A stretch of DNA of 64,000 nt, from NCBI GenBank assembly GCA_947652605.1, contig OX393576.1, forward strand, positions 56,644,966 through 56,708,965. Direction: 5' to 3'. The translations under genes were made by a program, and so were the position numbers. Shown in pieces: positions 3,848 through 61,026 of the stretch. The stretch comes from Elmis aenea (lineage: Eukaryota > Arthropoda > Insecta > Coleoptera > Elmidae). Below the pieces are notes generated by a model. The model made no database searches. It was not told where the DNA came from and worked only from the letters and a program-made list of their open reading frames with translations. The first letter of the stretch is position 1. Every line of letters begins with the position of its first letter.

Positions 3848-5100
3848 CAGGGGTCTGCAACCTTTTTTGAATAGCGGGCCAAATTAAATAATAATATTTT
3901 CAGACGGGCCGCACATACCAACCGACTCTGACAAATGGCGTTCGTAAGGTGCTTTTTTACCGGGATACAAACATAAACTTGGTTATTTTATTTTCGGTCT
4001 GAATTGTGTGGGCATCAATCATTTTCGATCACCAAATATTTACCAACACTAAATGAAACATAAAATAACGCTGGACTATAGCGTTAAAATAAAAATATAT
4101 AACAAAATTGAAAAGAAATTTTATTATGCATTTGATGTTTTAACTATTAATGTTGTTTTAAATATAGTACAGTGTTTCTTAAACATTGCGAAAAAAATTG
4201 GAACGTGATTCCTTATCAAAAATTAAGGGGGGACTTTTATATTAAATTTTTTCCTAGACGTCTCCTTTCGGAGTTACATCCCCTAATGGGGAGCGGTAAA
4301 ATTAGGATTCTATTTTATTTCTCAAATTTTGATAAACGTAGAAGAATGATATTTGGTAAATGGTTTGTACTTATTGAATGGTTTCCCATAGAAATATTTT
4401 CAATCATCTCCCACCTCCACAGGGGGCTGAAAAGTGCAACCCCTGTTGGTTTTTGAATCAGAACTTTTTGGTCAGTTGAAATTTTGCAATTTTAAATAAT
4501 TTTTTTGATAGCTTGATTAATTTAGAAACTTTTTTGTTTTAGTGTTTCCTGAAAAACCTACAATTTTTGAGTAAAAAATAAAATAAGTAAAGATGCACCA
4601 TTACATATTCCAATATAAAACGATTCATTTTGGTGGTTACCTTGGTTTGTTTATTTTATTGCAAAATTTTATCCCACCAAAAAGTTCTGATTCAAAAATC
4701 AACAGGGGTCGCACTTTTCAGCCCCCTGTGAAGGTGGGAGATGATCGTAAATATTACTTTGGGAAACCTCTCAATAAGTACAAAATACCTAGGTAACAAG
4801 TATCATTCTTCTACATTTATTCAAATTTCAGAAATAAAATGAAAACCTAATTTTACCGCTCCACTTTAGGGGGGTGTAACTCCGAAAAAAGTTGAAGGAA
4901 ATTTTTTTATATAAAAGTCCTTTCTTAATTTTCGATAAGGAACTACCTCCTGAAATTTTTCGCAATATTTAAGAAACATCCTGTATATTTAGGTTTAACT
5001 TGGCGGGCCAGATCAAGACACATGGCGGGCCTACTAAGTCATAAAATTTACGAGGTGGTTATTATTCATAAAGTTATGAAACATTTCATTGATTTTGGGC
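3848..5100. mobile_element. hAT-like fragment, left end only
   Basis: CAGGGGTCTGCAACC followed by CGGGCC motifs is the usual look of a hAT terminus. Matching GGCGGGCC motifs occur again near 5000-5040 on the far side of the nested foldback, but no clean right terminus or 8-bp duplication was found. The right limit is approximate. Confidence 0.4.
4170..4983. mobile_element. Foldback MITE, CAGGGTGTTTC family (copy 1)
   Basis: It starts CAGTGTTTCTTAAA and ends TTTAAGAAACATCCTG, with TA at 4168-4169 and 4984-4985. The arms are about 330 bp and pair end to end; shared blocks include GACGTCTCCTTTCGGAG and CAGGGGGCTGAAAAGTG. The middle holds TTCATTTTGGTGGTTACC. Related copies lie at 41.8, 56.2 and 58.9 kb. 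A 94-codon frame in the left arm recurs in those copies but is not recognised. Confidence 0.85.
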
Positions 5101-6239: not shown

Positions 6240-6932
6240 TACACTACACCAGTTCAAAAGGTTTGACTCTCTTGAGCCTTCTTTTCAAACCAGCATTATC
6301 TAGGAGCTGTAGCACTTCGGTGTTGCCATGGGCGTGCAGTCTTCCCTCGTGCTTTTCTGCAAAATTTTTAATCTTTTCTCTGAACGTTGGGATCTTCAGA
6401 TCTCTGTGTAAATGGTCATTCCGATTTCCGATAGTACCATTGACAATACCTCGGAGGACCCTATTTTGAAAGGCCTGGATTGTATCTATGTTGCTTTTGG
6501 CTACACATCCCCAGAGCTGATTCCCATAAGTCGAGACTGCTTTAGGATTTGTTTGTACAGTAGTAACTTATTATGCACAGACAATTGTGATTTTCTTCCA
6601 ATCAGAAAGTAATATTTTTTGGATTTAGGGTCGTTCTTTTCTTTTTTTCTTTATGTGTTCTTTTCATCGAGACGAATAACCAGATGCATTCGCAAGTATT
6701 TTGCTGTATCGCAATGTGGGAGTTTGGCATTTTTTATTGATCTCGGGAATTATTTATTTTGCTTGTAAGCAAAGTCAATATGCGCTGATTTACTCTCGTT
6801 GATTCTTACTCTCCACCTCTTAGTCCAATCGGTTACTCTGTTGCATGCTTCTTGAAGTTTAGCAGCTGTTTTTACATTGTCATTACCAACTGCCAAGATG
6901 GCTGTATCGTCAGCAAAAGTTGCAATTGTGAC
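6240..6932 (-). pseudogene. 5'-truncated Jockey-type LINE, reverse transcriptase C-terminal half
   Basis: Read on the minus strand, the fragment opens at the reverse transcriptase catalytic box FADDTAILA (about 6893-6925). It continues through LQEACNRVTDW, then a block corresponding to LLYKQILK, and ends at NAGLKRR and the stop near 6245. Order and wording match the palm-to-thumb region and C-terminal tail of Jockey-clade non-LTR reverse transcriptases. Several frameshifts and stops break the frame. The same family occurs at 13.7-15.2 kb on the plus strand, where the homologous text can be aligned almost throughout. The break at 6932 is a 5' truncation, as usual for LINE insertion; a hAT element lies immediately beyond. 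Confidence 0.85.
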
Positions 6933-6939
6933 GTGTTGA

Positions 6940-13689: not shown

Positions 13690-15204
13690 AGCGTACAGAT
13701 GGTAAGGAAACACTATTTCCTCTGTAACGTTACCAAAAAACTAAAACGACCGCTCATGCATAGCTCTCCAATCAGATCCTTAGATGGAAGCTGGGCAAAG
13801 ACCAATCAGGAGAAAGCAGAAGTATTTGCTAACCACCTGGTAACTCAAAAAGAAGTTGCAGAAGAAATTAGAACCAATATCAGCTCGAAAAGGGCTCTGG
13901 GATATGATCTCGTAACCGGATAAATACTTAAGAAGCTGCCTAGGAAAGCGATAGAAAAACTTTCTTACCTGATAAACGCGGCATTCCGCCTGAAATATGT
14001 GCTGGACATCTAGAAAGTGGTTGAGGTAATTATGATTGCCAAACCTGGTAAACCTCCGAACGATGTCTGATCATAAAGACCTATTGTGCTACTTCCAATA
14101 GTGTCAAAATTATTCAAAAATCTGCTCCTGAGCGATTAAACCATTATTGAAAGCAAGAAGCTAATCCCTACTTACCAGTTCGCATTTAGGAACAGGCACA
14201 CGACAATTGATCAGGTTGATCGAGTAAAGTACATAATAGAAAAAGCGTGTAAAGAAAAGAAAATATGCTTAGCTATATTCTTAGAAGTAGCCCAGGCGTT
14301 TGTCAGTCTAGCACGAAGGTCTAAAGTATAAGCTAAAGAACATGTTGCCAAAAAAATATGCCGAAATATTAAAGTCTTACATTATCTGAACGAATGTTTT
14401 GGGTCAAGCAAGAGAGACAGTACTCAAACATGAGAAATATAAATACAGAAGTTCCGTAAGGCAATGTTTTGGGACCTATTTTACACTTGCCGTACACTTG
14501 CGACATTCCACAGACTCAAAATGTCACAATTGCAAATTTTGCTGACGATACAGCCATCTTGGCAATTGGTAATGACAATGTAGAAACAGCTGCTAAACTT
14601 CAAGAAGCATGCAACAGAGCAACTGACGGGACAGTGGTGAAGAGTAAGAATCGATGAGAGTAAACCAGCGCATATTCACTTTGCCTACAAGCAGAATGAA
14701 CAATTCCCGATATCAATAAACAATGCCAAAACCTCACATTGCGATACAGCAAAAAACTTGGGAATGAATCTGTATATACGTGTTCGAATGAAAAGAACAC
14801 ATAAAGAAAAAAAAAAGAACTTTACCTTAAATACAAAAAATTGTACTTTCGGATTGGAATCAAATCACAATAGTCTGCGCGTAATACTGTACAAACAAAT
14901 CTTAAAGCCAGTCTGGACTTATGGGGTTCAGCTCTGGGGATGTGAAGCCAAAAGCAACATAGATAAAATCCAGGTCTTTTAAAATAGAGTGCTCCGAGGT
15001 ATTGTCGATGCTCCATGGTACTATCGAAATGACCATCTACACAGAGATCTGAAGATTCCAACCGTCAAAGAAGAGATCAAAAGGTTTGCAGAAAAGCAAG
15101 AGGGAAGACTTTACCCCTATGGCAACACCCAAGTGCTGCAACTCCTAGATAATGCTGGTTTGAAAAGAAGGTCAAAGAGAGTCAAACCTCTTGAACTGGT
15201 GTAG
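13690..15204 (+). pseudogene. Jockey-type LINE reverse transcriptase, broken
   Basis: In order: VTKKLKRPLMHSSPIRSLDG and ANHLV (linker before the RT), AFRLKYVLDIWK and AKPGKPP (finger region), SYRPIVLLP-like text, FRNRHTTIDQVDRV, FLEVAQAF (normally an FLD-type catalytic strand; the Asp is replaced by Glu), GNVLGPIL, FADDTAILA (catalytic palm, about 14536-14565), LYKQILKPVWTYGVQLWG, RVLRGIVDAPWYYRNDHL, and a C-terminal end at the stop 15202-15204. This is the Jockey RT layout. Stops and frameshifts occur throughout, and the endonuclease is missing. The 6.2-6.9 kb fragment is the same family. An A-rich 3' region follows to about 15285. Confidence 0.9.
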
Positions 15205-15289
15205 AGTATATCGATACAGTGCTGAAGCAGAGCATACTGAAAAAAAAAAACAACGGTAGAGATGAGGAAGAATAAGAAATAAAGAAGGC

Positions 15290-23330: not shown

Positions 23331-23546
23331 GTAAATAATATAAAAATATTAAAAAGCATATTACATTTTTATTGGCTCTTGAGGACCACCGTACAATACA
23401 TATAAATCATAAAATGTTACAAGCATAACGAAAACATTTCAGCTCAAATGAATTGTTGTTACAATTGGTATTTAATTTGCAATATTGATCAAATAAACTA
23501 GACAAAAGCATACTGAAATAAAGAATTTATTGATTTAACTGGTTAA

Positions 23547-24117
23547 CCTTTAAGTAGTCGCACGGCGCCGCAGAGGCGCCAAGCGTTTTTTAAATCGTTG
23601 TTACATTTTTAATGATTTTTTGTCACTAATATCTGTTTATGTATTCCTCAATTGTACTTTTAGGAATACGAATTATATAGTATTATTCATATTTCTCTAT
23701 TTTACAGTCCGTAAAATGCAATTATGTGCTACTCGGCATGAACGCTGTCATTTATGCCCTAGGGCTAAAAATCGACATTCGCAACAAATTTGTTCGCAAT
23801 GCCATAAAAATATTTGTTCAGAGCATTATAATAAAATTGTGCAGTGAATGCTTTGCAGCCAATGTTTGATTCGTATTAAAAAGAAATTATTTTATGTTTT
23901 TACAGTTATGTTTTATATACAGATATATATTTTTTATATCTTATAATTTATTTAGTCATTGTTATTCCTTTTAAGATTTAGCTTATATTTTATGAATAAA
24001 CCAGTTTAACACATTTTTAAGATTTTAAGTCAAAAACATTGTTATAAAACCCCAATGGTGCCTCCGAAGCGCCACGCGAGTAGTTATGTATACACAGTAC
24101 ACGCGACTAGTTAAAGG
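23547..24117 (+). mobile_element. Small piggyBac derivative, copy 1
   Basis: It is bounded by TTAA at 23543-23546 and 24118-24121, the fixed piggyBac target duplication. The ends CCTTTAAGTAGTCGC and GCGACTAGTTAAAGG are inverted. Just inside lie GC-rich dyads, GGCGCCGCAGAGGCGCC on the left and GGTGCCTCCGAAGCGCC on the right, probably transposase binding sites. At 571 bp it retains only the last transposase exon. A second copy, inverted, is at 60.5 kb. Confidence 0.95.
23708..23847 (+). pseudogene. piggyBac transposase terminal exon (cysteine-rich domain)
   Basis: A pyrimidine-rich tract ending CTCTATTTTACAG (23707) makes a good 3' splice site. The exon reads MQLCATRHERCHLCP, RQICSQCH-type text (RHSQQICSQCHKNICSEH), then stops. 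Paired CxxC and CxxxxCxxH spacing is the RING/PHD-like cysteine-rich C-terminal domain of piggyBac transposases, which contacts the element ends. Compared with the copy at 60.7 kb, one extra base after SEH shifts the frame and removes the last cysteine block. The DDD catalytic core is absent. Taken into a host transcript it would add a truncated zinc-binding tail, but no donor exon is known here. Confidence 0.82.
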
Positions 24118-24121
24118 TTAA

Positions 24122-33010: not shown

Positions 33011-33027
33011 GTAAAGTAAATAGCATA

Positions 33028-33750
33028 CAGGGTGGCCTATTTTGATGCCCATACAGGGTATCTCGGTTAGTATCAGAGATAGAAAAAAAAAACAAGTCCT
33101 TTTTTCGAGAGAAATTTATTGCCGTAAACAGATTTTTGATATCTTTTTTAATTTTCGAAATATTGCCAAAACCAGATTTTAGGCACTTTTCAAAAATGTT
33201 AAATAACGTCGCTTAAACGAAAAAAATAGAAAAAACTTTAAAGACAGTTTTTGCATAGTTTTTTGTCCTTAATAAGATATCGATGTTGTTTTTTTTAACT
33301 CTTATAAATGTTGATATATTACAGCTAACTTTCTTATTTTTTAAATGGCAACCATAGTTGGCTTTGACGTAAATCAAAAGCTTACTTTTTGCGATTTTCG
33401 AAAATATTTAATTTGCTTATGGTTGCCATAATAAGAAAGTTAGTTGTAATATATCGATATTTATGTGAGTAAAAAAAAAATTGAATACAGCTATCTTATT
33501 AAGGACAACAAAACCATGCCAAAAATGTTTTTAAAGTTTTTTTTTTCGTTTGCTAGATTATTTAACAATTTTGAAAAGTGCCAAAAATCGGGTTTTGGCT
33601 ATATTTCAAAAATTAAAAAAGGATATCAAAAATCTGTTTACGGCAATGAATTTCTCTTGAAAAAAGAAATCGAGACTATGTACTCAGTTTTTTTCTATCT
33701 CTTATAATAACCGAGATACCCTGTATAGGCATTGAAAATAGGCCACCCTG
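33028..33750. mobile_element. Foldback MITE, CAGGGTGGCC family
   Basis: CAGGGTGGCCTATTTTGATG and its inverse are bounded by TA (33026-33027, 33751-33752). The two ~350-bp arms pair almost throughout, with GGTATCTCGGTTA and TAACCGAGATACC near the tips and GGCAACCATAG / CTTATGGTTGCC near the centre. The 80-codon plus frame inside is repeat shadow. Confidence 0.9.
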
Positions 33751-34109
33751 TACATAGTGCAGTAACACAAACCAAAAGTTTGTTTCAGCAGACCAAAATT
33801 TACTAGTTCATAGACTAAAACATAAATTGGTTTATGAACATCGGTCAACTATGGACTAATAATGTAAATGACATTTATACGTATTGAGTTCATAGAAATT
33901 TGCGCATCGCAAGTGTCAACATCTTAAGAAACCAGTACTTTATAGGGTTGAGATGGCGATGCATAGCTACCAGAGGCCACATTAGTTGTTAACAGCGCAT
34001 GCGTCTAATAATTCCAGCTTAGTTTTTGTTCTAATCCATGTAGGGGAGACTGTTGTACCTTGAGCATAGTGTACCTTGGAACATTTGCGGATTCTAAATA
34101 GTGCTGGCA

Positions 34110-35148
34110 CTTGGTTATCGTCTTTTTTTTTTGAGTTATCGCCAATAACTCGATTTTACGACTATTCGTTTTATGACTATATTTCGCTTGTTTATGAATA
34201 AGATAAGAATGCAGTGGCGTAGACAATTTTGCAAAAATTTAATGGAAATTCGAGTTGTGACATAAAGTTGTATTTTTTTAAATAGAACCCATCGTTGGCT
34301 ATGACTTATTTAAATTCCTTATTTTTTGTCATTCCAAATATATCAGGGTTAATGTAGTTATTTTTAATAATACGCAAGTTACGAAGGTTTTTTAGTTTTT
34401 TTTTAAACAAAATTATAGTCGGCTGTGAAAACAAAAACAAAACAAGGTGTAAAACTTTTTAAAACTCATTTGGTACAGGTTACGAAGGCTTTGTAATTTT
34501 TTATTGTGAAAAACATTGTAAATATATCAAAATAAGGAAACAACGATAAAGTCGGAATCTGCAGTATTGTAGTTTATCTTATGTTCAAATATTTGTAATG
34601 TTTATCACAACAACAAATTACAAGACCTTCGTAACTTGTACCAAATGTGTTTAAAAAGGTTTTACAGCTTGTTTTGTTTTTGTTTTCACAGCCTACTATA
34701 ATTTTATTTAAAAAAAAAACTAAAAAACCTTAGTAACTTACGTATTATTGATAATAAATAGAATAAAACCATATTTGTAATGCCAAAAAAATAAGGAATT
34801 TAAATAAGTCATAGCCAACTATGGGTTGCATTTAAAAAAATACAACTTTATGTCACAACTCTGTTTTCCATTAAATTTTTGCAAAATTGTCTACGCCCCT
34901 GCATTTTTATCAAAAAAGTGCCTGTAGAACGTCAAAATAATTTTTGTTTATTTTCATAAACAAGCGAAATGTCATAAAACGATAGTCGTAAAATCGAGTT
35001 ATCGGCGATAACTCAAAAACAAAAAACGATAACCAATTTTAGTTTAACTTTTTCTAGAAAAAAGAGACCGAGGATGCGCGGTTCGTTTTTTGATACCTCT
35101 TATAGTTATCGAGATTCCCTAGTAAAACATCGAAATTTGCCCACCCTG
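34110..35148. mobile_element. Foldback element, left tip lost
   Basis: Arms around 34115-34330 and 34790-35045 are inverted copies (GAGTTATCGCCAATAACTCG against CGAGTTATCGGCGATAACTC). The right tip CCCACCCTG is followed by TA at 35149-35150. The left tip is replaced by an unrelated end, TA plus GGGGAGACTGTTGTACC at 34041-34059. A similar end lies inverted near 55950. Confidence 0.75.
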
Positions 35149-41630: not shown

Positions 41631-42282
41631 TTTGTAATCAGGGATGGAATAACGTTTTAAATCGTTACGTTATTGTATAACGTTATTTATTATTTGTTTT
41701 CGTTACATAACGTTATAAATAACGTTAAAAAAATGAATTGTTATGTTATATAACGTTATATAACGTTACATAAATTATGATATACAGGGTGTTTCTTAAA
41801 TAATGCGAAAAAATTCGGAAGGTGATTCCTTATTGAAAATAAAGTGGGGTCTTTTATATAACAACTTTTTCTTAGACGTCTCCTTTCGCAGTTACACCCC
41901 CCTAAAGGGGAGCGGTAAAATTAGGTTTTTATTTTATTTCTCAAATTTATCTAAATGTAGGAGAATGATATTTGGTAGATGTTTTATACTTATTAAAAGG
42001 TTTCCCATAGTATTATTTTCAATCATCTTCCACCTTCATAGGGGGCTGATAAGTGCGACCCCTGTTGATTTTTAAATCAGAACTTTTCGGTGAGTTGAAA
42101 TTTTGCAAATTTTTTTTTGTTACTTTGATTTATTTAGAACCTTTTTTCATTCTTTAGTTTTTCTCGTAAATCTTACAGTTTTGAGTAAAAAATTAAATGA
42201 GTGAATATGATGTTTATGTTTATATTGAGTAGAATTGACGGGCGTTTTAGCGTTGTCGCCGCGTAAGCGTCAAAATGAATTA

Positions 42283-42500
42283 TAGCTGTATTACACTATA
42301 CAATTTCTTGTTCAAAAATTTTTATACTAGATTGTACAGCTGTTGCCAAGTTACAACACGTTTTATGTCGTAAACTGACACTTCGCGTATGTCAATTTAC
42401 GACATAAGACGTGTTGTAACTTGGCAACAGCTGTACAATCTAGTATAAAATTTCTTGAACAAAAAATTGTACAAGAAATTGTGTAATGTAATACAGCCTT
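42283..42500. mobile_element. 218-bp palindromic MITE flanked by TTA
   Basis: Two arms of about 100 bp pair nearly perfectly around GACACTTCGCGTATGTC near 42390. Shared blocks include TAGATTGTACAGCTGTTGCC. Tips TAGCTGTATTAC and GTAATACAGCCTT lie between TTA at 42280-42282 and 42501-42503. The copy at 56.7 kb reads GAATTACACCCGTC without the insert, proving insertion with a TTA duplication. A 3-bp TTA/TAA target suits PIF/Harbinger, but no transposase is present. Confidence 0.9.
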
Positions 42501-42631
42501 TTACACCCGTCACTTCTATCCAATATCGTTTTATATTGGAATATTTGATTTTTACTCAAAAACTGTAGGTTTAACGAGAAGAGTTAAATAAAAAAAAACT
42601 TCTAAATAAATCAAGTTTTTAAAGAAAATTT

Positions 42632-43384
42632 GGTATAACTTCACTTTAGCGGCAGTTGTCGAAAATTGATAAAATTTTGTGGGTTAATAAAACTAGACTT
42701 GCTGAACTCAAATATGTTAAAATTACTTGGCGCTCTCATTTAATAAGCGTAAAAATTCAATATAAAAGTTCCGTTTGACAGTTAGGTTAGGTTTTTTAAT
42801 TCGAATTTTCTCATATTAGGATGGCTAAATTATCTGTGTAAAGTGTACAAATATGATTATAAGGCATAAATGAAACTATATTTGTATTGATTTTGTGTTA
42901 AAATAAGCTTAAAATAACGTAAATCTTATAACATACCCAAGTACACAACTGTCATTTTTTGCCGTCTTGACTTACTTTTTCCACCTTTCTTGACCTTTCT
43001 GAGATAGTAAGGTGGACTCATTTAGATCTATAAGGATCAGATCAGTTTCAGTTGGAACTGAAATTTTAATTTTAAGCGACCCTTAATTTATTTTTTTAAC
43101 AAATAACTTGTAATTTGAGAGTGGTAGTTAATAATGCTGGTTGATTGACCTTATTTGACTCTCTTGAATTTCTGTGAAAAAACACTCATGAAACGTCATT
43201 TTCACAGACGTCATTTACTAAAATGGGATTAATTGGAATGCCTGAAGCGGCATTTTAAACATTTTATACACACAAACACATACGGAGATAATCAATATAT
43301 TTATAGCGAAAAAAAATTGGTGGCCACACACATAAGTTTAAAAATTGAATATTGTACAGCTGCACATCATCTTATTCCAAATTT
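42632..43384 (+). repeat. Left inverted arm of the satellite foldback
   Basis: Reverse complement of 49878-50629 with few mismatches. The inner end reads ATTGTACAGCTGCACATC then ATCTTATTCCAAATT, which resembles the start of a satellite monomer. Confidence 0.95.
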
Positions 43385-43631
43385 GTTTTACTGTAGCATT
43401 CCCCAATAATCTGCGTTAAAAACAAACCCTAACCAACCTCTAAGCTGACCCTCTGACCTCTGACGAAAGTAAACAGAATGGCTATGGAAGAATAGTGTTG
43501 CGCACAGCTGCACGCCATCTTATTCGTTACTTATTTTATTTTAGCGTTCCCCATTATTTATCTAAAAAAAAAAACTTTTACCGACCTCTTATCTGACTCT
43601 CTGAAGAAAGTAAACACACTGAGCAGAAATA
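43385..43631 (-). repeat. Two satellite monomers in reverse orientation
   Basis: They read TTAGCGTTCCCCATTATT and GTAAACACACTGAGCAGAAA, the reverse complement of the main array. The second includes GCGCACAGCTGCACGCC, combining the monomer GCGCAAC block with the arm's CAGCTGCAC. Orientation switches at about 43631. Confidence 0.9.
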
Positions 43632-46600
43632 AGATGACTTACGCAACACTGCATCATCGACATTCTGTTTATTTTCGTCAGAGGGTCAAGTTAGAGGTCG
43701 GTAAAAGTTTTTTTTTAAGATGAATAATGGAGAACGCTAAAATTAAACGAGTTACGAATAAGATCTCGTGCGCAACACTATTTCATCGACATTCTGTTTA
43801 TTTTCGTCATAGGGCAAGATTAAAGGTCGGTAAAAGTATTTTTTAAAAAGGTGAATAATGGGGAACGCTAAAATAAATCAAGTTACAAATAAGATCTCGT
43901 GCGCAACACTATTTCATCGACATTCTGTTTATTTTTGTCAGAGGGTCAGGTTAAAGGTCGGTAAAATTTTTTTTTTTAAGATGAATGATGGGGAACGCTA
44001 GAATAAAACAAGTTACGAATAAGATGACGTGCGCAACACTATTTCTGGTCAGTGTGTTTACTTTCATCAGAGGGTTAGGTTAGAGGTCGTTAAAAGTTGT
44101 TTTTTTTAAAGCTGAATAATGGGGAACGCTAAAATAATACAAGTTACTAATAAGATCTCGTGCGCAACACTATTTCATCGACATTCTGTTTATTTTCGTC
44201 ATAGGGCAAGATTAGAGGTGGGTAAAAGTTTTTTTTTAAGGTGAATAATGGGGAACGCTAAAATGAAACAACTTAAGAATAAGATGACGTGCGCAACACT
44301 ATTCCATCGACATTAAGTTTGTTTTCGTCAGAGGGTTAGGTTAGAGGTCGACAAAAGTTTTTTTTTTTGAAGATTAATAATGGAGAACGCTAAAATAAAA
44401 CGAGTTACGAATAAGATCTCGTGCGCAATACTATTTCATCGACATTTTGTTTATTTTCGTCAGAGGGTCAAGTTAGAGGTCGGTAAAAGTTTTTTTTTTA
44501 AAGATGAATAGTGGAGAACGCTAAAATGACACAACTTAAAAATTAGATGACGTGCGCAACACTATTCCATCAACATTCTGTTTATTTTCGTCAAAGGGTC
44601 AGATTAGAGGTCGGTAAAAGTTTTTTTTTTGAAGATTAATATTGGAGAACGCTAAAATAAATTGAGTTACGAATAAGATCTCGTGCGCAACACTATTTCA
44701 TCGACATTCTGTTTATTTTCGTCAGAGGGTCAAGTTAGAGGTCGGTAAAAGTTTTTTTTTTAAAGATGAATAATGGAGAACGCTAAAATTAACACTATTT
44801 TGTCGATATTCAGTTTATTTTCGTCAGGGGGTCCGGTTAGAGGTCGGTAAAAGTTGTTTTTTTAAAGATGAATAAAGGGGAACGCTTAAATAAAACGAAC
44901 TACGAACAAGATGACGTGCGCAACAGTATTCGCTCGACATTCTGTTTATTTTCGTTAGAGGGTCAGGTTAGGGGTCGGTAAAAGTTTTATTTTTTTAAAG
45001 ATGAATAATGGGTAACGCTAAAATAAAACAACTTAAGAATAAGATGACGTGCGCAACACTATTCCATCGACATTAAGTTTATTTTCGTCAGAGGGTTAGG
45101 TTAGAGGTCGACAAAAGTTTTTTTTTTTAAGATTAATAATGGAGAACGCTAAAATAAAACGAGTTGCGAATAAGATCTCGTGCGCAACACTATTTCATCG
45201 ACATTCTGTTTATTTTCGTCAGAGGGTCAAGTTAGAGGTCGGTAAAAGTTTTTTTTTTAAAGATGAATAATGGAGAACGCTAAAATGAAACAACTTAAGA
45301 ATAAGATGACGTGCGCAACACTATTCCATCGACATTCTGTTTATTTTCGTCAAAGGGTCAGATTAGAGGTCAGTAAAAGTTTTTTTTTTGAAGATTAATA
45401 TTGGAGAACGCTAAAATAAAACGAGTTACGAATAAGATCTCGTGCGCAACACTATTTCATCGACATTCTGTTTATTTTCGTCAGAGGGTCAAGTTAGAGG
45501 TCGGTAAAAGTTTTTTTTTTTAAGATGAATAATGGAGAACGCTAAAATTAAACGAGTTACGAATAAGATCTCGTGCGCAACACTATTTCATCGACATTCT
45601 GTTTATTTTCGTCATAGGGCAAGATTAAAGGTCGGTAAAAGTATTTTTTAAAAAGGTGAATAATGGGGAACGCTAAAATAAATCAAGTTACAAACAAGAT
45701 CTCGTGCGCAACACTATTTCATCGACATTCTGTTTATTTTTGTCAGAGGGTCAGGTTAAAGGTCGGTAAAATTTTTTTTTTTAAGATGAATGATGGGGAA
45801 CGCTAGAATAAAACGAGTTACGAATAAGATGACGTGCGGAACACTATTCCATCGGCATTCTGTTTATTTTCGTCAGAGATTCAGGTTAGATGTCTGTAAA
45901 AGTTTTATTTTAATGCTGAATAATGGGGAACGCTAAAATAAAATAAGTCATGAATAAGATGACGTGCGCAACACTATTTCTGGGCAGTGTGTTTACTTTC
46001 ATGAAAGAGTTAGGTAAGAGGTCGTTAAAAGTTTTTTTTTTTAAGCTGAAAAATGAATAAGATGTGCCTAACACTATTACATCGACATTCTGTTTATTTT
46101 CGTCAGAGAGGCAGGTTAGAGGTTGGTAAAGGTTTTTTTTTAAAGACGAATAATGGGGAACGCTAAAATAAAACAAGTTACGAATAAGATGACGTGCGCA
46201 ACACTATTTCTGGTCAGTGTGTTTACTTTCATCAGAGGGTTAGGTTAGAGGTCGTTAAAAGTTGTTTTTTTTAAAGCTGAATAATGGGGAACGCTAAAAT
46301 AATACAAGTTACTAATAAGATCTCGTGCGCAACACTATTTCATCGACATTCTGTTTATTTTCGTCATAGGGCAAGATTAGAGGTGGGTAAAAGTTTTTTT
46401 TTAAGGTGAATAATGGGGAACGCTAAAATGAAACAACTTAAGAATAAGATGACGTGCGCAACACTATTCCATCGACATTAAGTTTGTTTTCGTCAGAGGG
46501 TTAGGTTAGAGGTCGACAAAAGTTTTTTTTTTTGAAGATTAATAATGGAGAACGCTAAAATAAAACGAGTTACGAATAAGATCTCGTGCGCAACACTATT

Positions 46601-49600
46601 TCATCGACATTCTGTTTATTTTCGTCAGAGGGTCAAGTTAGAGGTCGGTAAAAGTTTTTTTTTTAAAGATGAATAATGGAGAACGCTAAAATGAAACAAC
46701 TTAAGAATAAGATGACGTGCGCAACACTATTCCATCGACATTCTGTTTATTTTCGTCAAAGGGTCAGATTAGAGGTCAGTAAAAGTTTTTTTTTTGAAGA
46801 TTAATATTGGAGAACGCTAAAATAAAACGAGTTACGAATAAGATCTCGTGCGCAACACTATTTCATCGACATTCTGTTTATTTTCGTCAGAGGGTCAAGT
46901 TAGAGGTCGGTAAAAGTTTTTTTTTTTAAGATGAATAATGGAGAACGCTAAAATTAAACGAGTTACGAATAAGATCTCGTGCGCAACACTATTTCATCGA
47001 CATTCTGTTTATTTTCGTCATAGGGCAAGATTAAAGGTCGGTAAAAGTATTTTTTAAAAAGGTGAATAATGGGGAACGCTAAAATAAATCAAGTTACAAA
47101 CAAGATCTCGTGCGCAACACTATTTCATCGACATTCTGTTTATTTTTGTCAGAGGGTCAGGTTAAAGGTCGGTAAATTTTTTTTTTTTAAGATGAATGAT
47201 GGGGAACGCTAGAATAAAACGAGTTACGAATAAGATGACGTGCGGAACACTATTCCATCGGCATTCTGTTTATTTTCGTCAGAGATTCAGGTTAGATGTC
47301 TGTAAAAGTTTTATTTTAATGCTGAATAATGGGGAACGCTAAAATAAAATAAGTCATGAATAAGATGACGTGCGCAACACTATTTCTGGGCAGTGTGTTT
47401 ACTTTCATGAAAGAGTTAGGTAAGAGGTCGTTAAAAGTTTTTTTTTTTAAGCTGAAAAATGAATAAGATGTGCCTAACACTATTACATCGACATTCTGTT
47501 TATTTTCGTCAGAGAGGCAGGTTAGAGGTTGGTAAAGGTTTTTTTTTAAAGACGAATAATGGGGAACGCTAAAATAAAACAAGTTACGAATAAGATGACG
47601 TGCGCAACACTATTTCTGGTCAGTGTGTTTACTTTCATCAGAGGGTTAGGTTAGAGGTCGTTAAAAGTTGTTTTTTTTAAAGCTGAATAATGGGGAACGC
47701 TAAAATAATACAAGTTACTAATAAGATCTCGTGCGCAACACTATTTCATCGACATTCTGTTTATTTTCGTCATAGGGCAAGATTAGAGGTGGGTAAAAGT
47801 TTTTTTTTAAGGTGAATAATGGGGAACGCTAAAATGAAACAACTTAAGAATAAGATGACGTGCGCAACACTATTCCATCGACATTAAGTTTGTTTTCGTC
47901 AGAGGGTTAGGTTAGAGGTCGACAAAAGTTTTTTTTTTTGAAGATTAATAATGGAGAACGCTAAAATAAAACGAGTTACGAATAAGATCTCGTGCGCAAC
48001 ACTATTTCATCGACATTCTGTTTATTTTCGTCAGAGGGTCAAGTTAGAGGTCGGCAAAAGTTTTTTTTTTAAAGATGAATAATGGAGAACGCTAAAATGA
48101 CACAACTTAAGAATAAGATGACGTGCGCAACACTATTCCATCAACATTCTGTTTATTTTCGTCAAAGGGTCAGATTAGAGGTCGGTAAAAGTTTTTTTTT
48201 TTGAAGATTAATATTGGAGAACGCTAAAATAAAACGAGTTACGAATAAGATCTCGTGCGCAACACTATTTCATCGACATTCTGTTTATTTTCGTCAGAGG
48301 GTCAAGTTAGAGGTCGGTAAAAGTTTTTTTTTTAAAGATGAATAATGGAGAACGCTAAAATTAAACGAGTTACGAATAAGATCTCGTGCGCAACACTATT
48401 TCATCGACATTCTGTTTATTTTCGTCATAGGGCAAGATTAAAGGTCGGTAAAAGTATTTTTTTAAAAGGTGAATAATGGGGAACGCTAAAATAAATCAAG
48501 TTACAAATAAGATCTCGTGCGCAACACTATTTCATCGACATTCTGTTTATTTTTGTCAGAGGGTCAGGTTAGATGTCTGTAAAAGTTTTATTTTAATGCT
48601 GAATAATGGGGAACGCTAAAATAAAATAAGTCATGAATAAGATGACGTGCGCAACACTATTTCTGGGCAGTGTGTTTACTTTCATGAAAGAGTTAGGTAA
48701 GAGGTCGTTAAAAGTTTTTTTTTTGAAGCTGAAAAATGAATAAGATGTGCCCAACACTATTACATCGACATTCTGTTTATTTTCGTCAGAGAGGCAGGTT
48801 AGAGGTTGGTAAAGGTTTTTTTTTTAAGACGAATAATGGGGAACGCTAAAATAAAACAAGTTACGAATAAGATGACGTGCGCAACACTATTTCTGGTCAG
48901 TGTGTTTACTTTCATCAGAGGGTTAGGTTAGAAGTCGTTAAAAGTTGTTTTTTTTTTAAGCTGAATAATGGGGAACGCTAAAATATACAAGTTACGAATA
49001 AGATCTCGTGCGCAACACTATTTCATCGACATTCTGTTTATTTTCGTCATAGGGCAAGATTAGAGGTGGGTAAAAGTTTTTTTTAAAGGTGAATAATGGG
49101 GAACGCTAAAATGAAACAACTTAAGAATAAGATGACGTGCGCAACACTATTCCATCGACATTAAGTTTATTTTCGTCAGAGGGTTAGGTTAGAGGTCGAC
49201 AAAAGTTTTTTTTTTGAAGATTAATAATGGAGAACGCTAAAATAAAACGAGTTACGAATAAGATGACGTGCGCAACACTATTCCATCGACTTTCTGATTA
49301 TTTTCATCAGAGGATTAGTTTAGAGATCAGTAATTTTTTTTTTTTAAAGATGAATAATGGCGACCGCTAAAATAAAACAAGTTAGGAATAAGATGAAGTG
49401 CGCAACACTATTCCATCGACTTTCTGTTGATTTTCGTCAGAGTTAGAGGTCGGTAAAAGTTTTTTTTAAGGTGAATAATGGAGAACGCTAAAATAAAACG
49501 AGTTACGAATAAGATCTCGTGCGCAACACTATTTCATCGACATTCTGTTAATTTTTGTCAGAGGGTCAGGTAAAATTTTTTTTTTAAGGAATAATGGGGA

Positions 49601-49877
49601 ACGCTAAAATAAAACAATCTACGAATAAGATGACGTGCGCAACACTATTCCATCGACATTTTGTTTATTTTCGTCAGAGGGTCAGGTTAAAGATCGGTGA
49701 AAGATTTTTTTTTAAGATGAATGATGGGGAACGCTAGAATAAAACGAGTTACGAATAAGATGACGTGCGCAACACTATTCCATCGACATTCTGTTTATTT
49801 TCGTCAGAGAGTCAGGTTAGATCTCTGTAAAAGTTTTATTTTAATGCTGAATAATGGGGAACGCTAAAATAAAATAA
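43632..49877 (+). repeat. Satellite array, ~130-bp monomer, about 48 copies
   Basis: Each monomer has the order AAGATGACG or AAGATCTCG, TGCGCAACACTATT, CATCGACATTCTG, TTTATTTTCGTCAGAGGG, GGTTAGAGGTC, a T-run, then AATAATGGGGAACGCTAAAA. Start-to-start spacing is 126-135 bp, with a few shortened units (near 44788 and 46059). Variant monomers, such as one with TTTCTGGTCAGTGTG and one with CATTAAG, recur in fixed order. The matching 88-codon minus frames at 45910 and 47316 are repeat shadows. Confidence 0.97.
45041..49128 (+). repeat. Higher-order repeat, 11 monomers, ~1406 bp, three copies
   Basis: Units start at 45041, 46446 and 47852, marked by the CATCGACATTAAG monomer; a further marker monomer is at 49129. 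The first two units (1405 and 1406 bp) are almost identical, differing mainly in T-run length. The third is 1277 bp because one monomer, the one with GTGCGGAACAC, is missing cleanly. Monomers before 45041 and after 49129 are related but more diverged. Confidence 0.93.
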
Positions 49878-50629
49878 GTTACGAATTTGGAATAAGATGA
49901 TGTGCAGCTGTACACTATTTAATTTTTAAACTAATGTGTGTGGCCACCAATTTTTTTCGCTATAAATATATTGATTCTTCGTATGTTTGTGTGTATAAAA
50001 TGTTTAAAATGCCGCTTCAGGCATTCCAATTAATCTCATTTTAGTAAATGACGTCTGTGAAAATGACGTTTCATGAGTGTTTTTTCACAGAAATTCAAGA
50101 GAGTCAAATAAGGTTAATCAACCAGCATTATTAACTACCACTCTCAAATTACAAGTTATTTGTTAAAAAAATAAATTAAGGGTCGCTTAAAATTAAAATT
50201 TTAGTTCCAACTGAACTGATCTGATCCTTATAGATCTAAATGAGTCCACCTTACTATCTCAGAAAGGTCAAGAAAGGTGGAAAAAGTAAGTCAAGACGGC
50301 AAAAAATGACAGTTGTGTACTTGGGTATGTTATAAGATTTACGTTATTTTAAGCTTATTTTAACACAAAATCAATACAAATATAGTTTCATTTATGCCTT
50401 ATAATCATATTTGTACACTTTACACAGATAATTTAGCCATCCTAACATGAGAAAATTCGAATTAAAAAACCTAACCTAACTGTCAAACGGAACTTTTATA
50501 TTGAATTTTTACGCTTATTAAATGAGAGCGCCAAGTAATTTTAACATATTTGAGTTCAGCAAGTCTAGTTTTATTAACCCACAAAATTTTATCAATTTTC
50601 GACAACTGCCGCTAAAGTGAAGTAGTTCC
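49878..50629 (-). repeat. Right inverted arm of the satellite foldback
   Basis: Inverse of the left arm. The junction with the array (GAATTTGGAATAAGATGATG, then TGCAGCTGTACACTATTT) keeps the monomer pattern AATAAGATGA-GTGC---ACACTATTT, so array and arm share sequence. Confidence 0.95.
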
Positions 50630-51281
50630 GAAAATTTAAAATTGTTAGATTTCAACCCACCAAAAAGTTCTGATAAAAAAACCAACAGGGGTCGCACTTT
50701 TCAGCCCCCTGTGAAGGTGGGAGATGATTAAAAATATTACTATGGGAAACCTTTTTATAAGTATAAATCTCCCACATTTATCCAAATTTGGGAAATAAAA
50801 TAAAAATCCAATTTTACCGATCCCTTTTAGGGGGTGTAACTCCGAAAGGAGACCCTAAGAAAAAAATATGAGAGACCCCTCTTAATTTTCGATTAACTAT
50901 CACCTCCTGAATTTTTTCACATTATTTAAGAAACATGCTGTATAAAAATAATTTTTAATTGTAACACTGAAATTATTTTTGGGATCTGTAAATGTAAATT
51001 TAAAAAATAGTACCTACAAAATTACGTTGAGGTTGAGATATTTTATTTTCATTTTAATTTCTAAAATCCAAATAAAGTATATCTTCAGAAAATAAAAAGA
51101 TGGCCATATAAAAATTTAACTTATAGAGAATAACGATACAAAATAACTTTTAACGAAACGTTATCGGTTATTATAACGTTATAAAAATATCGTTACGTTA
51201 TTGTATAAAAAATTATAGTTGAATCGTTATTATAACGTTATCGGGTATCGTTACGTTACGTTTTCCATCCCTGTTTGTAAT

Positions 51282-56080: not shown

Positions 56081-56089
56081 ACTATAAAT

Positions 56090-57516
56090 GAGGGATGAAA
56101 TAACGTGTTAAATTGTTACGTTATTGTATAACGTTATTTATTATTTGTTTTCGTTACATAACGTGATAAATAACGTTAAAAAAATGAATTGTTATGTTAC
56201 ATAACGTTATATAACGTTGCATAAATTATGATATACAGGGTGTTTCATAAATAATGCGAAAAAATTCGAAAGGTGATTCCTTATAGAAAATAAAGTGGGG
56301 TCTTTTATATAACAATTTTTTCTTAGACGTCTCCTTTCGGAGTTACACCCCTCTAAAGGGGAGCGATAAAATTAGGTTTTTATTTTATTTCTCAAATTTA
56401 GATAAATGTAGGAGAATGATATTTGGTAGATGTTTTATACTTATTAAAAGGTTTCCCATAGTATTATTTTCAATCATCTTCCACCTTCATAGGGGGCTAA
56501 TAAGTGCGACCCCTGTTGGTTTTTTAATCAGAAGTTTTTGACGAGTTGAAATTTTGCAAAAAAAATTTTTGTTAGTTTGATTTATTTAGAACCTTTTTTT
56601 ATTCTTTAGTTTTTCTCGTAAATCTTACAGTTTTGAGTAAAAAATTAAATGAGTGAATATGATGTTAATGTTCATATTGGGTAGATTTGACGCGCGTTTT
56701 AGCGTTGTCGCCGCGTAAACGTCAAAATGAATTACACCCGTCACTTCCATCCAATATCGTTTTATATTGGAATATTTGATGGTTCATGTTCATTCACATA
56801 ATTTTTTACTCAAAAACTGTAGGTTTAACGAGAACAGTTAAAGAATAAAAAAAACTTATAAATAAATCAAGTTTTTAAAGAAAATTTAAAATTGCTAGAT
56901 TTCAACCCACCAAAAAGTCCTGGTAAAAAAACCAACAGGTGTCGCACTTTTCAGCCCCCTGTGAAGGTGGGAGATGTATAAAAAAAGTATAAATCGCCCA
57001 CATTTATCCAATTTTGGGAAATAAAATTAAAACCCAATTTTACCGATCCCCTTTAGGGGGGTGTAACTCCGAAAGGAGACTCTAAAGAAAAAAAAAATAA
57101 GAAAGACCCTTCTTAATTTTCGATTAAGTATCACCTGCCGAATTTTTTCGCATTATTTAAGAAACATGCTGTATAAAAATAATTTTTATTTGTAACTCTG
57201 AAATTATTTTTGGGATCTGTAAATGTAAATTTAAAAAATAGTACTACAAAATTACGTTGAGGTTGAGATATTTTATTTTCATTTTAATTTCTAAAATACA
57301 AACAAAATATTATATCTTCAGAAAATAAAAAGATCGCCCTATAAAAATTTAATTTATAGAGAATAACGATACAAAATAACTTTTAACGAAACGTTATCGG
57401 TTATTATAACGTTATATAACGTTATAAAAATATCGTTACGTTATTGTATAAAAAATTATAGTTGAATCGTTATTATAACGTTATCGGGTATCGTTACGTT
57501 ACGTTTTCCATCCCTG
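56090..57516. mobile_element. hAT-type composite element (copy 2)
   Basis: GAGGGATGAAATAACG and GTTTTCCATCCCTG lie between CTATAAAT at 56082-56089 and 57517-57524. It has the same ATAACGTTAT-rich subterminal regions as copy 1 and the same internal TA-flanked foldback at the same place, but lacks the two later insertions. The first base is G instead of C, a mutated tip. Confidence 0.93.
56236..57171. mobile_element. Foldback, CAGGGTGTTTC family (copy 3), intact
   Basis: 936 bp between TA at 56234-56235 and 57172-57173. It holds GAATTACACCCGTC (empty site of the 218-bp MITE) and AAAGAAAATTTAAAATTG (empty site of the satellite foldback). Its left arm contains GCGTTTTAGCGTTGTCGCCG. Confidence 0.93.
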
Positions 57517-57639: not shown

Positions 57640-58930
57640 GTCTAAACTTGGCTACACTCGGCGTTTTTTTTTAAAGCTACCGAAGACTTTTTCTAATTAA
57701 AAAAATTAATAAGGTTTTGGAATAGCAATGAGAGAATTTTTAAATTTAAATTATGATTTGCATTATGTTAAACGCTCTGAATATTAAAAATAAAATTTGC
57801 ATACAATTTCCTTGTACCTGAACAATCACTCCAAAACGTATCTTTGCAATCGATTCTAAACTTTAAATAGCGATTGCTGGGACGATAACGCAGGTAACTC
57901 GAAGTGTGCGGTTGTTTAAGTTTTCGAATTTCGGTTTTTGTAATTAGTTTTGTAAAGTCTTACTTAATTATACACGAGGCGTGATTTAAGTTTACCCAAT
58001 ATTACACTCGAACCGACTAAGACATTTGTGTTAAGATTCGGCGCACGTTTCTTAAATTTCCTCCTAAACCTCGACGCATATCGGGAACGAGCCAACAAGG
58101 TTTGTCGGAAATTACCCCATCTGGTCGAGATATAATAAAAGCTTTAACTGAACTGAGGGTAAGTGGCTAATTAACATTATCAGGATACCGCGGTGATTGG
58201 CCAATTACGGATGACTGACTTTTACCGTTGAACAGTTTACTGCTAACTGGTAATTGCTACTTACCTTTACAAACTCCGCTTTGAATATAATGTATGAATT
58301 TTTAGGATAATTCTCAAAGGGCCTGTTTAGAACTAATTTACCGTAAGTTGTTGCATGTTCTTGTTTAGCGCGATAAATTGATCTCAAATACCTAAGTTGT
58401 TAAACTATAAACTAGACCCTAAACAAACCGTTTCGGGTGTGCTCCATACTCCATAGAACCCTTATGCATTTCCTTAATGTTGGTTACACTCCACTCATGA
58501 AACTAAAGTCCGAGCATATTTTCTCTTGGAACCACGCTTTAAGGGAAAACATTTTAATGGAACATATCGCTGAAATTTAAATTTTTTTAAGGAACCCAAA
58601 ATGTGTATAGCAAAATTTTTATGTTTTATCTCAGGTGTTCTGTACTGCTTGAGATTTCCGACTATTATTATTATTAAAGCGAGGAAGTTCGTTGAAGAAT
58701 AAACCTAGATTTCGTTTTTTATAACGCTTAGCTAAATTATCGTTTACATGCAAAAAACCAAAATAATGCATTTTCTTAACCGGTGCTTCCTTGCAAGGGG
58801 CTAGATGCACCTATTCATTAACAAATGTTAGCAAGAAAACGTGCGATAGTAACTTTGGTCAGACTGTTTTTCCAAAATGGCTTTTGCAGCAACCAGAATA
58901 TATTCTTTGGTTTTTATTTTAAATACATTT
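57640..58930. other. No element recognised; apparently unique sequence
   Basis: Base composition is more even around 57840-58200 than in flanking transposons, but there is no long frame or domain. Confidence 0.4.
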
Positions 58931-58938
58931 AAAATATA

Positions 58939-59410
58939 CAGGGCGTTTCTTATATATTGCAAAAAAATTCGGGAAGTGATTCCTAATCAAAAAATAAGAG
59001 GGGGTCTGTCAGATAATTTTTTCTCTAGACGTCTCCTTTCAGAGTTACACCCCCTAAAGGTGATCAGTAAGATTAGGTTTTTATTTTATTTCTCAAATTT
59101 GGATAAATGTAGGAGAATGATATTTTGTAGATGTTTTTTACTTATTAAAAGGTTTCCCATAGTAATATTTTTAATCATTTCCCACCTTCACAGGAGGCTG
59201 AAAAGTGCGACCCCTGCTATCAAAACTTCTTGGCGGGTTAAAATTTTGCAATTTAAAAATTTATTTGAAAGCTTGAGTTATTTAGAAACTTATTTTATTC
59301 CGCAGTTTTTTTCGTAAAACCTACCGCTTTTAAGTAAAATTTAAGATAAATGAACATGTGACATTAAATAATGTTTCAATATATAACCATTCATTTTGGT
59401 GGTTGCCATG
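58939..59410. mobile_element. Foldback, CAGGGTGTTTC family (copy 4), left half only
   Basis: CAGGGCGTTTCTTATA after TA at 58937-58938, then the family arm (GACGTCTCCTTTCAGAG, CAGGAGGCTGAAAAGTG) up to the centre TTCATTTTGGTGGTTGCC at about 59390. The right arm is missing. Confidence 0.8.
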
Positions 59411-60451: not shown

Positions 60452-60455
60452 TTAA

Positions 60456-61022
60456 CCTTTAACTAGTCGCGTGTACTGTGTATACATAACTACTCGCATG
60501 GCGCCTCGGAGGCACCATTGGGGTTTTATAACAATATTTTTGACTTAAAATCTTAAAAATGTGTTAAACTGCTTTATTCATAAAATATAAGCTAAATCTT
60601 AAAAAGAATAACAATGACCAAATAAATTATAAGATATAAAAAATATATATCTGTATATAAAACATGACTGTAAAAACAGTTTTTTTTTTTTTTTTAATAC
60701 GAATCAAACATTGGATGCAAAGCATTCACTGCGCAATTTTATTGTATGCTCTGAACAGATATTTTTATGGCATTGCGAACAAATTTGTTGCGAATGTCGA
60801 TTTTTAGCCCTAGGGCATAAATGATAGCGTTCATGCCGAGTAGCACATAATTCCATTTTACGGACTGTAAAATAGAGAAATATGAATAATACTATATAAT
60901 TCGTATTCCTAAAAGTACAATTGAGGAATACATAAACAGATATTAGTGACAAAAAAATTATTAAAAATGTAACAACGATTTAAAACTTGGCGCCTCTGCG
61001 GCGCCGTGCGACTACTTAAAGG
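60456..61022 (-). mobile_element. Small piggyBac derivative, copy 2 (inverted)
   Basis: TTAA at 60452-60455 and 61023-61026. Ends CCTTTAACTAGTCGCG and GCGACTACTTAAAGG. GC dyads GGCGCCTCTGCGGCGCC and GGCGCCTCGGAGGCACC sit inside. At 567 bp it is nearly identical to the 23.5-kb copy, apart from small indels and a longer T-run. Confidence 0.95.
60704..60864 (-). pseudogene. piggyBac transposase terminal exon (cysteine-rich domain), open copy
   Basis: It follows a 3' splice site CTCTATTTTACAG on the minus strand (exon from 60864). It reads MELCATRHERYHLCP, RHSQQICSQCHKNICSEH and continues in frame through KLRSECFASNV to the stop at 60704. The C-terminal cysteine is retained, unlike the 23.7-kb copy, while the first CxxxxxC pair has Tyr where the other copy has Cys. 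This is the cysteine-rich domain of piggyBac transposases; the catalytic core is absent. Confidence 0.82.
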
Positions 61023-61026
61023 TTAA

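Follow-up and report, generated by a model that had tools for sequence, protein, structure and literature searches.

A probable Merlin-type foldback element in Elmis aenea carries a satellite array with higher-order repeats

A foldback-type element of about 8 kb occupies positions 42632–50629 of a 64,000-nucleotide stretch of the genome of the beetle Elmis aenea (contig OX393576.1; the whole stretch is referred to as the window) and holds, between its inverted arms, a satellite array with an 11-monomer higher-order repeat (HOR). With a probability that we put at about 0.83, it is a non-autonomous Merlin-type foldback that is moved in trans by a Merlin transposase and whose array evolves within individual copies by unequal exchange. 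The insertion is precise and has an empty counterpart, dispersed copies bear target-site duplications of their own, and transposase-bearing relatives have the same build. The transposases of these relatives, or a closer one, would probably move the subfamily of the window in trans. Within the family, the satellite belongs to the regular interior of the elements.

The element, its insertion site and its dispersed copies

The bounds of the element are exact to the base, and it begins with GGTATAAC at 42632 and ends with GTAGTTCC at 50629. Its outer parts and the corresponding empty site are:

42624–42631, no strand: left target-site duplication, GAAAATTT, the same letters as at 50630–50637, found once in the paralogous empty site (56880–56887)
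42632–43387, plus strand: left arm, about 756 bp, with the tip GGTATAACTTCACTTTAGCGGCAG
49881–50629, minus strand: right arm, with the tip GGAACTACTTCACTTTAGCGGCAG, read inward
50630–50637, no strand: right target-site duplication, GAAAATTT, matching the left one at 8/8 positions
56087–57516, plus strand: paralogous host repeat without the element (empty site), with GAAAATTT once, at 56880–56887

The two arms show 98% complementarity along some 750 bp. In blocks of 50 columns, the identity between them falls from 0.94 to 0.66 near 43382 and amounts to 66–84% beyond this point, where the inverted monomers begin. Outside the element, the left flank (42501–42631) matches 56732–56887 with 81% identity and the right flank (50630–51273) matches 56880–57516 with 89% identity, both with gaps. 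Since these two matches overlap by exactly the eight bases of GAAAATTT at 56880–56887, the repeat at 56087–57516 represents the empty site. No stop-to-stop frame of at least 120 amino acids occurs within the element. A Pfam scan of six open reading frames (ORFs) of the window gave two weak matches below the cut-off, neither of them inside the element; an Rfam search at gathering scores gave no match in the window, and exact tip words and monomer words had no occurrence in viral contigs. An initial annotation of the window had delimited the same element, with inverted arms of about 750 bp, an 8-bp duplication and no encoded protein, and the exact bounds, the complementarity of the arms, the presence of GAAAATTT on both sides and the absence of a frame of that length bear this out.

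The host of the insertion is a palindromic dispersed repeat family, copies of which lie at 41636–42623, 50630–51273, 56087–57516, 4159–4991, and 58919–59358 of the window. The flanks of one short relative, L034, resemble those of the window element.

Further copies were sought in the genome of the window itself (516.4 Mb, 302 contigs). An arm query gave 43 matches (40 of 489 candidates were scored), 41 of them at 98–100% identity over nearly the full query. The tip pattern with at most one mismatch occurs 211 times genome-wide (106 forward and 105 reverse; 0 for the reversed control), so that the arms are far from being restricted to this locus, and the exact left tip occurs 75 times. Of the 20 stretches fetched, 17 have a pair of inverted monomers next to the left-type tip; the exceptions are L028, L031, and L034. 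According to BLAST, the main arrays of the 14 stretches with both tips and an array comprise 23, 41, 34, 18, 37, 17, 22, 23, 17, 41, 10, 2, 38, and 44 monomers, compared with 49 in the window and none in L034. Among 16 delimited elements, perfect 8-bp duplications were found in eight and perfect 9-bp duplications in three (L022, L036, and L039); seven of eight bases agree in one (L032), and four have none. The duplication of L024 is a perfect 8 bp that consists entirely of A's. The left arms of 14 copies share a mean identity of 98.8%. Dispersed arms with their own 8- or 9-bp duplications and with arrays of different lengths, which the initial annotation had named as support for mobility, are thus present. 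Facing tip pairs 108–363 bp apart among the 100 tip matches listed indicate that short copies exist as well. L034 measures 481 bp and has a perfect duplication and no array; it counts against the need for an array, though the array may have been lost after insertion.

Some copies have peculiarities of their own. In L027 (C3:25313040-25323039), a second arm starts right where a broken first arm ends, a sign of nested or rearranged copies. A 371-amino-acid open frame lies at L037:1354 on the minus strand, and its product presumably resembles a Tc1/mariner-type transposase. The non-autonomous L030 (C209:61300) and the transposase-bearing L050/L051 (C174:69200-79200) share the duplication AAAAATTA and lie at one and the same position of a common ~171-bp tandem repeat, which would reflect either a target preference or one site spread by satellite turnover. 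Repeated flanks were also observed at the transposase-bearing copy on C8 and, by eye, at that on C9.

The satellite array and its higher-order repeats

The interior of the window element is composed of the following features:

43362–43616, minus strand: two inverted satellite monomers at the inner end of the left arm
43638–49895, plus strand: satellite array, 49 monomers of about 131 bp each
45049–46193, plus strand: HOR copy a, partial, nine monomers FIHLBCMNO
46194–47599, plus strand: HOR copy b, complete, 11-mer DEFIHLBCMNO, 1406 bp
47600–48876, plus strand: HOR copy c, 10 monomers, 1277 bp, 99.22% identical to copy b
48517–48646, plus strand: monomer P, with the first 55 bases of type C and the last 83 of 130 of the neighbouring type M
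48877–49267, plus strand: start (DEF) of a further HOR copy, 98.2% identical to copy b

As the monomers in the left arm are inverted, two arrays meet head to head, a feature that the initial annotation does not mention. The 49 monomers of the main array have a mean pairwise identity of 86%, and their clustering yields the type string ABCDEFGHIJK FIHLBCMNO DEFIHLBCMNO DEFIHLBPNO DEF QRSTU. The 11-mer is present in a single complete copy, and the others hold 9, 10, and 3 monomers. Over types F to O, the identity is 99.74% between copies a and b, 99.02% between b and c, and 98.82% between a and c, i.e., 98.8–99.7% between units against 86% between monomers. In addition, monomers 11 positions apart are of the same type in 16 of 38 pairs, compared with a maximum of 8 in 500 shuffles of their order. 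By both measures, the array has a genuine HOR, and the ~6.3 kb of ~130-bp monomers with an 11-monomer HOR described in the initial annotation are confirmed by the 49 monomers and the 1406-bp unit. Copies b and c differ by one in-register 130-bp deletion. At this deletion, monomer P combines a C prefix and an M suffix, so that a single exchange between adjacent monomers appears to have produced it.

A derivation of the monomer from the arm was considered and is not supported. The best case, arm positions 42983–43112 against the reverse monomer, scored 20, with a shuffled mean of 14.6 and 7 of 300 shuffles reaching 20; local alignments of the forward strand and both tip tests were negative, and nhmmer with the monomer profile gave nothing credible in the arm.

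For a comparison between copies, 401 monomers from 14 copies were used, leaving out L026, L027, L028, L031, and L038 (not delimited), L034 (no array), and L037 (two monomers). At 4%, these monomers fall into 63 types, of which 30 are singletons and 33 have several members; 12 of the latter 33 are confined to one copy. To assess periodicity, pairs of the same type were counted at the best lag, and the count was compared with the highest value among 500 shuffles of the monomer order. An HOR-like period exceeds the shuffles in nine of the 14 arrays and amounts to 4, 7, 11, 12, or 17 monomers. Besides the 11-monomer period of the window, these are lag 17 in L035 (13/22 pairs, shuffle maximum 8), lag 12 in L039 (15/25, maximum 11), lag 7 in L040 (16/36, maximum 10), and lag 4 in L022 (18/36, maximum 11), L023 (16/29, maximum 11), L021 (11/19, maximum 7), L033 (5/12, maximum 4), and L024 (4/13, maximum 3).

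The ends of the arrays are partly shared between copies. The head order 10-5-8-6-2-7-1-3 is common to six copies (L021, L022, L023, L025, L030, and L039), and the tail order 12-13 occurs in 9 of 14; the window has this tail and not the common head. The best match of a monomer lies within its own copy for 36 of 49 monomers in the window, 29 of 39 in L035, 27 of 43 in L040, and 9 of 17 in L024. In the remaining ten copies, 0–10 monomers match best within the copy, many of them tied with or beaten by monomers of other copies (at most 7). The same four copies (window, L024, L035, and L040; 4/14) contain repeated types private to the copy within this sample, their arrays being largely or partly private, and L025 has one such type. 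Mismatch-free chimeras of adjacent pairs, counted without a chance control, were detected in three of the 14 copies, clearly in the window and L035 and marginally in L024 (a 26-base prefix, the limit being 25), and in none of the other 11.

One HOR array has evidently changed its place as a whole. On both C4 and C9, the best monomer matches lie 2870–2871 bp apart, which suggests a period of about 22 monomers. CGAATTTA stands on either side of the copy at C4:37988444-37998977, whose right arm contains foreign sequence, and GACTAGGG on either side of that at C9:8806035-8815860; the outer flanks of the two copies differ. The array segments sampled from the two loci were identical at 501 of 501 bases twice, i.e., at 1002 of 1002 bases. 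On C4 itself, the second and third successive units agree at 500/501 positions and the first and second at 453/495. The identity of the sampled arrays together with the different duplications indicates that the element moved after the repeat structure had formed, so that the HOR array moved as a unit.

These data bear on the idea that the array lengths and HORs are mostly assembly artefacts. The sequence is known from an assembly alone, and near-identical 1.4-kb units are hard to assemble. Nevertheless, the HOR copies of the window differ by substitutions and by one in-register deletion with a clean chimera, two separate loci have matching arrays with 1002 identical sampled bases, and the monomer order is partly common to the copies, which together make such artefacts extremely improbable.

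At most of the array loci listed, the monomers lie near an arm tip. The monomer motif TGGNGAACGCTAAAAT occurs 1476 times (control 0), and, as 248 matches were counted per 401 sampled monomers, the genome would hold roughly 2400 monomers or more. The 100 matches listed of these 1476, which cover the first 44 Mb of C1, form clusters below 5 kb. Merging the monomer-array matches listed gave 31 array loci with spans of 1.7–8.5 kb. An exact window-type tip is present at 22 of them (21 left and 1 right) and an arm end without its first base at one more; the tip lies 271–2388 bp from the array at these 23 loci and 715–718 bp from it at 13 of the 23. With 23 of 31 listed loci linked to a tip, a monomer restricted to long arrays unrelated to the arms, which the initial annotation had held to be incompatible with its view, does not show among the loci listed. 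One of the other eight loci was read at the place predicted by the layout, and it has a tip of the transposase-bearing type, with 99.7% identity to the left arm of those copies over 334 bases. No PF12762 match lies near this locus, which suggests that the element there is a non-autonomous partner of the transposase-bearing ones.

The transposon might instead have captured a pre-existing HOR satellite that arose in a conventional long array and was then carried along. Scalvenzi and Pollet have proposed a model in which miniature inverted-repeat transposable elements (MITEs) capture tandem repeats (cited after PMC12628747), some insertions lie inside ordinary tandem repeats, and several copies contain a 4-mer built of shared types. 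On the other hand, no long array appears among the matches listed, in which motif clusters and array loci keep to the short spans given above, the HOR periods differ between copies, and 12 of the 33 multi-member types are restricted to a single copy. Capture is distinctly improbable. Of the link to satellite birth drawn in the initial annotation, HOR arrays within mobile copies are borne out; a free-standing satellite would be a further step, no long array having been seen among the matches listed.

Work on the origins of HORs has mostly relied on huge centromeric arrays, which no longer retain starting points or replicates. The present family offers many bounded arrays of 2–49 monomers, many of them marked as insertions by a duplication, which serve as natural replicates of one process. 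Heads and tails are partly shared, whereas the interiors have different periods and, in 4 of 14 copies, private types, so that satellite growth can be compared copy by copy. Moreover, the family demonstrates that an HOR-structured satellite can be mobilised in one piece, and it indicates the superfamily of the transposase that probably moves the family.

Transposase-bearing relatives and classification

A genome profile search with PF12762 gave 66 matches (79 candidates, all scored), and a 318-amino-acid open frame was found at six loci. One of the transposase-bearing copies, L041 on C3, has arms with 98% complementarity over 475 bp. Between them lie one inverted monomer, 23 monomers of about 123 bp in forward orientation and, next to the right arm, the gene; the copy on C9 has the same layout with 32 monomers. 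The left arm of L041 is 91.0% identical to that of the window element over the first 480 bp. Its 318-amino-acid protein matches the Pfam family DDE_Tnp_IS1595 (E 3e-18), and D147, D208, and E245, which we take from their motif context to be the catalytic triad, are invariant in nine aligned proteins. The protein has 1222 homologues; among the 120 listed, those named by species are mostly from arthropods, with one from a rust fungus. The transposase-bearing copies on C8 and C174 have 8-bp duplications on both sides, CAACTTTC and AAAAATTA, respectively. The left end of the C4 copy is unreadable, and only the left tip of the C2 copy was found.

Another Merlin locus with a 352-amino-acid protein, L042, shows no significant similarity to the window element and was set aside. 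In both L041 (70.6% identity over 724 columns) and L042 (100% over 773 bp), part of the gene region is present as an inverted repeat. Frames of at least 100 amino acids in seven fetched loci include no Merlin-like protein by eye, the Pfam scan having covered the L041 protein only.

Merlin elements are described as having terminal 5'-GG, 8- or 9-bp duplications, and a DDE_Tnp_IS1595 transposase, and some copies contain a few tandem repeats (PMC8101967). All three traits recur here. The duplication is 8/8 in the window and perfect in 11 of the 16 delimited copies. The window element has the termini GGTATAAC and GGAACTAC, and the pattern that occurs 211 times in the genome contains GG; the transposase-bearing copies, which begin with GGCTTAAG and GGAACAAG, keep this trait, whereas L029 begins with AG. 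The transposase is encoded by relatives with homologous arms and array, the window copy encoding none. The foldback character is equally clear from the ~756-bp arms, their 98% complementarity, and the inverted monomers at the inner ends. The search for a related element whose transposase would name the superfamily, proposed in the initial annotation, thus points to Merlin. Its assumption of an unseen helper holds insofar as the element is protein-free and Merlin-bearing relatives exist; a helper with the exact window tips was not found among the elements marked by the 75 exact left tips.

Origin from another superfamily with 8–9 bp duplications and long arms, of the Mutator or Foldback type, would make the Merlin resemblance a borrowed one. 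According to the authors of the Tetris study, most foldbacks seem to be Mutator elements, and Tetris was placed there by its 8–10 bp duplications (PMC4079207); furthermore, the transposase of the window subfamily itself was not found when the PF12762 matches were compared with the 75 exact left tips. However, GG termini with 8- or 9-bp duplications are stated features of Merlin (PMC8101967), and a Merlin gene lies inside elements with homologous arms and array. With the genome searched by the PF12762 profile among transposase models, this alternative is very improbable.

Mechanism and related systems

The family follows one layout, with one or two monomers near the left tip in one direction and then a longer opposite array up to the right arm. 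For a non-autonomous Merlin-type foldback, a Merlin transposase would cut and paste the element in trans, producing the 8- or 9-bp duplications. The interior of the array may then expand and contract by unequal exchange, slippage, or repair of the excision gap. Some HORs would thereby become private to one copy while others, such as the 4-mer, are built of shared types and may be older, and the HOR would travel along whenever the element moves again.

Several observations weigh against this reading. The order of the monomers shows no periodicity above shuffles in five of the 14 arrays (L025, L029, L030, L032, and L036). Not every HOR is private, since the 4-mer 3-2-4-1 recurs in L021, L022, L023, L025, L030, and L039, which suggests that this HOR may predate those copies. 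No duplication was found in four of the 16 delimited elements, namely L021 (right tip altered), L023, L029 (N adjoining), and L037, and none is recognisable in the transposase-bearing copies on C3 and C9, i.e., in two of the four such copies read at both ends. The tip of the transposase-bearing subfamily is 75.5% identical to that of the window over the first 50 bp. Only one of the 66 PF12762 matches lies within 25 kb of any of the 75 exact left tips, on its outer side, and none of the 66 lies inside an element marked by one of these tips, right tips having been listed in part. The arms of ~756 bp exceed the 24–462 bp cited for Merlin; this is a described range and not a requirement, and long arms are a foldback trait. 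Finally, unequal exchange is suggested by footprints, i.e., chimeric monomers and an in-register deletion.

A bolder version holds that Merlin transposition itself drives HOR formation, which would make the element a mobile generator of higher-order satellites with the array as a landing platform for transposase. Excision gaps would be refilled from the sister copy across the array, resetting the interior in each round while head and tail stay fixed. The array is kept even in the transposase-bearing copies read, yet we regard this version as rather unlikely.

The closest published case is Tetris by layout and Merlin by tips, duplication length, and transposase. Tetris of Drosophila virilis already provides a foldback that gave rise to a satellite (PMC4079207). 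Compared by layout, it resembles the present family in being a non-coding foldback whose arms have an outer domain of up to 866 bp and then tandem repeats of ~220 bp, with 8–9 bp duplications in complete copies (9–10 bp in rearranged ones), and with repeat numbers that vary between alleles. It was assigned to Mutator without a transposase, and its TIR-220 repeat also forms longer satellite-like arrays. No HOR is mentioned in the consulted parts of that paper, whereas the window family has Merlin relatives and HOR periods that differ between copies. Merlin elements as described have arms of 24–462 bp and tandem repeats such as 2.3 × 52 bp or 3–4 × 163 bp (PMC8101967), whereas the foldback arms here measure ~756 bp and enclose an HOR-bearing array of up to 49 monomers.

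Other systems share single aspects, as judged from the relevant parts of the cited papers. Rehavkus-1_TC of Tribolium is a DNA transposon with a satellite repeat, TCsat23, in its inverted termini, but its arrays mostly have five and eight monomers and none more than nine, and no HOR is reported in those parts (PMC10218199). Galileo and Foldback have long, internally repetitive arms whose repeats can hold secondary transposase binding sites; Galileo depends on a THAP transposase of the P superfamily (PMC3688188), whereas the related transposase of the window family is Merlin and its binding to the repeats is hypothetical. The TCAST transposon-like elements of Tribolium likewise contain inverted satellite segments in the arms of a non-coding element, but these comprise one almost complete monomer and a segment of ~121 bp, with a 3-bp duplication and a mariner-like relative (PMC3411249). 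In the portions seen of the open-access PMC literature, neither a satellite-bearing Merlin foldback nor an HOR within any foldback came to light, nor did HORs differing among the copies of one transposon. Foldbacks with satellites are thus known already, and the link to Merlin and the HOR differences from copy to copy are new within the literature searched.

The window contains further inverted structures. Two other palindromic elements lie at 33026–33752 (~0.7 kb) and 34111–35036 (~0.9 kb). An inverted pair of ~580 bp with 95% identity is separated by 36 kb (23543–24121 and 60452–61026). A second inverted pair, of ~700 bp with 86% identity (6240–6939 and 14516–15208), has translations that, by eye, we take to resemble the end of a non-LTR (long terminal repeat) retrotransposon.

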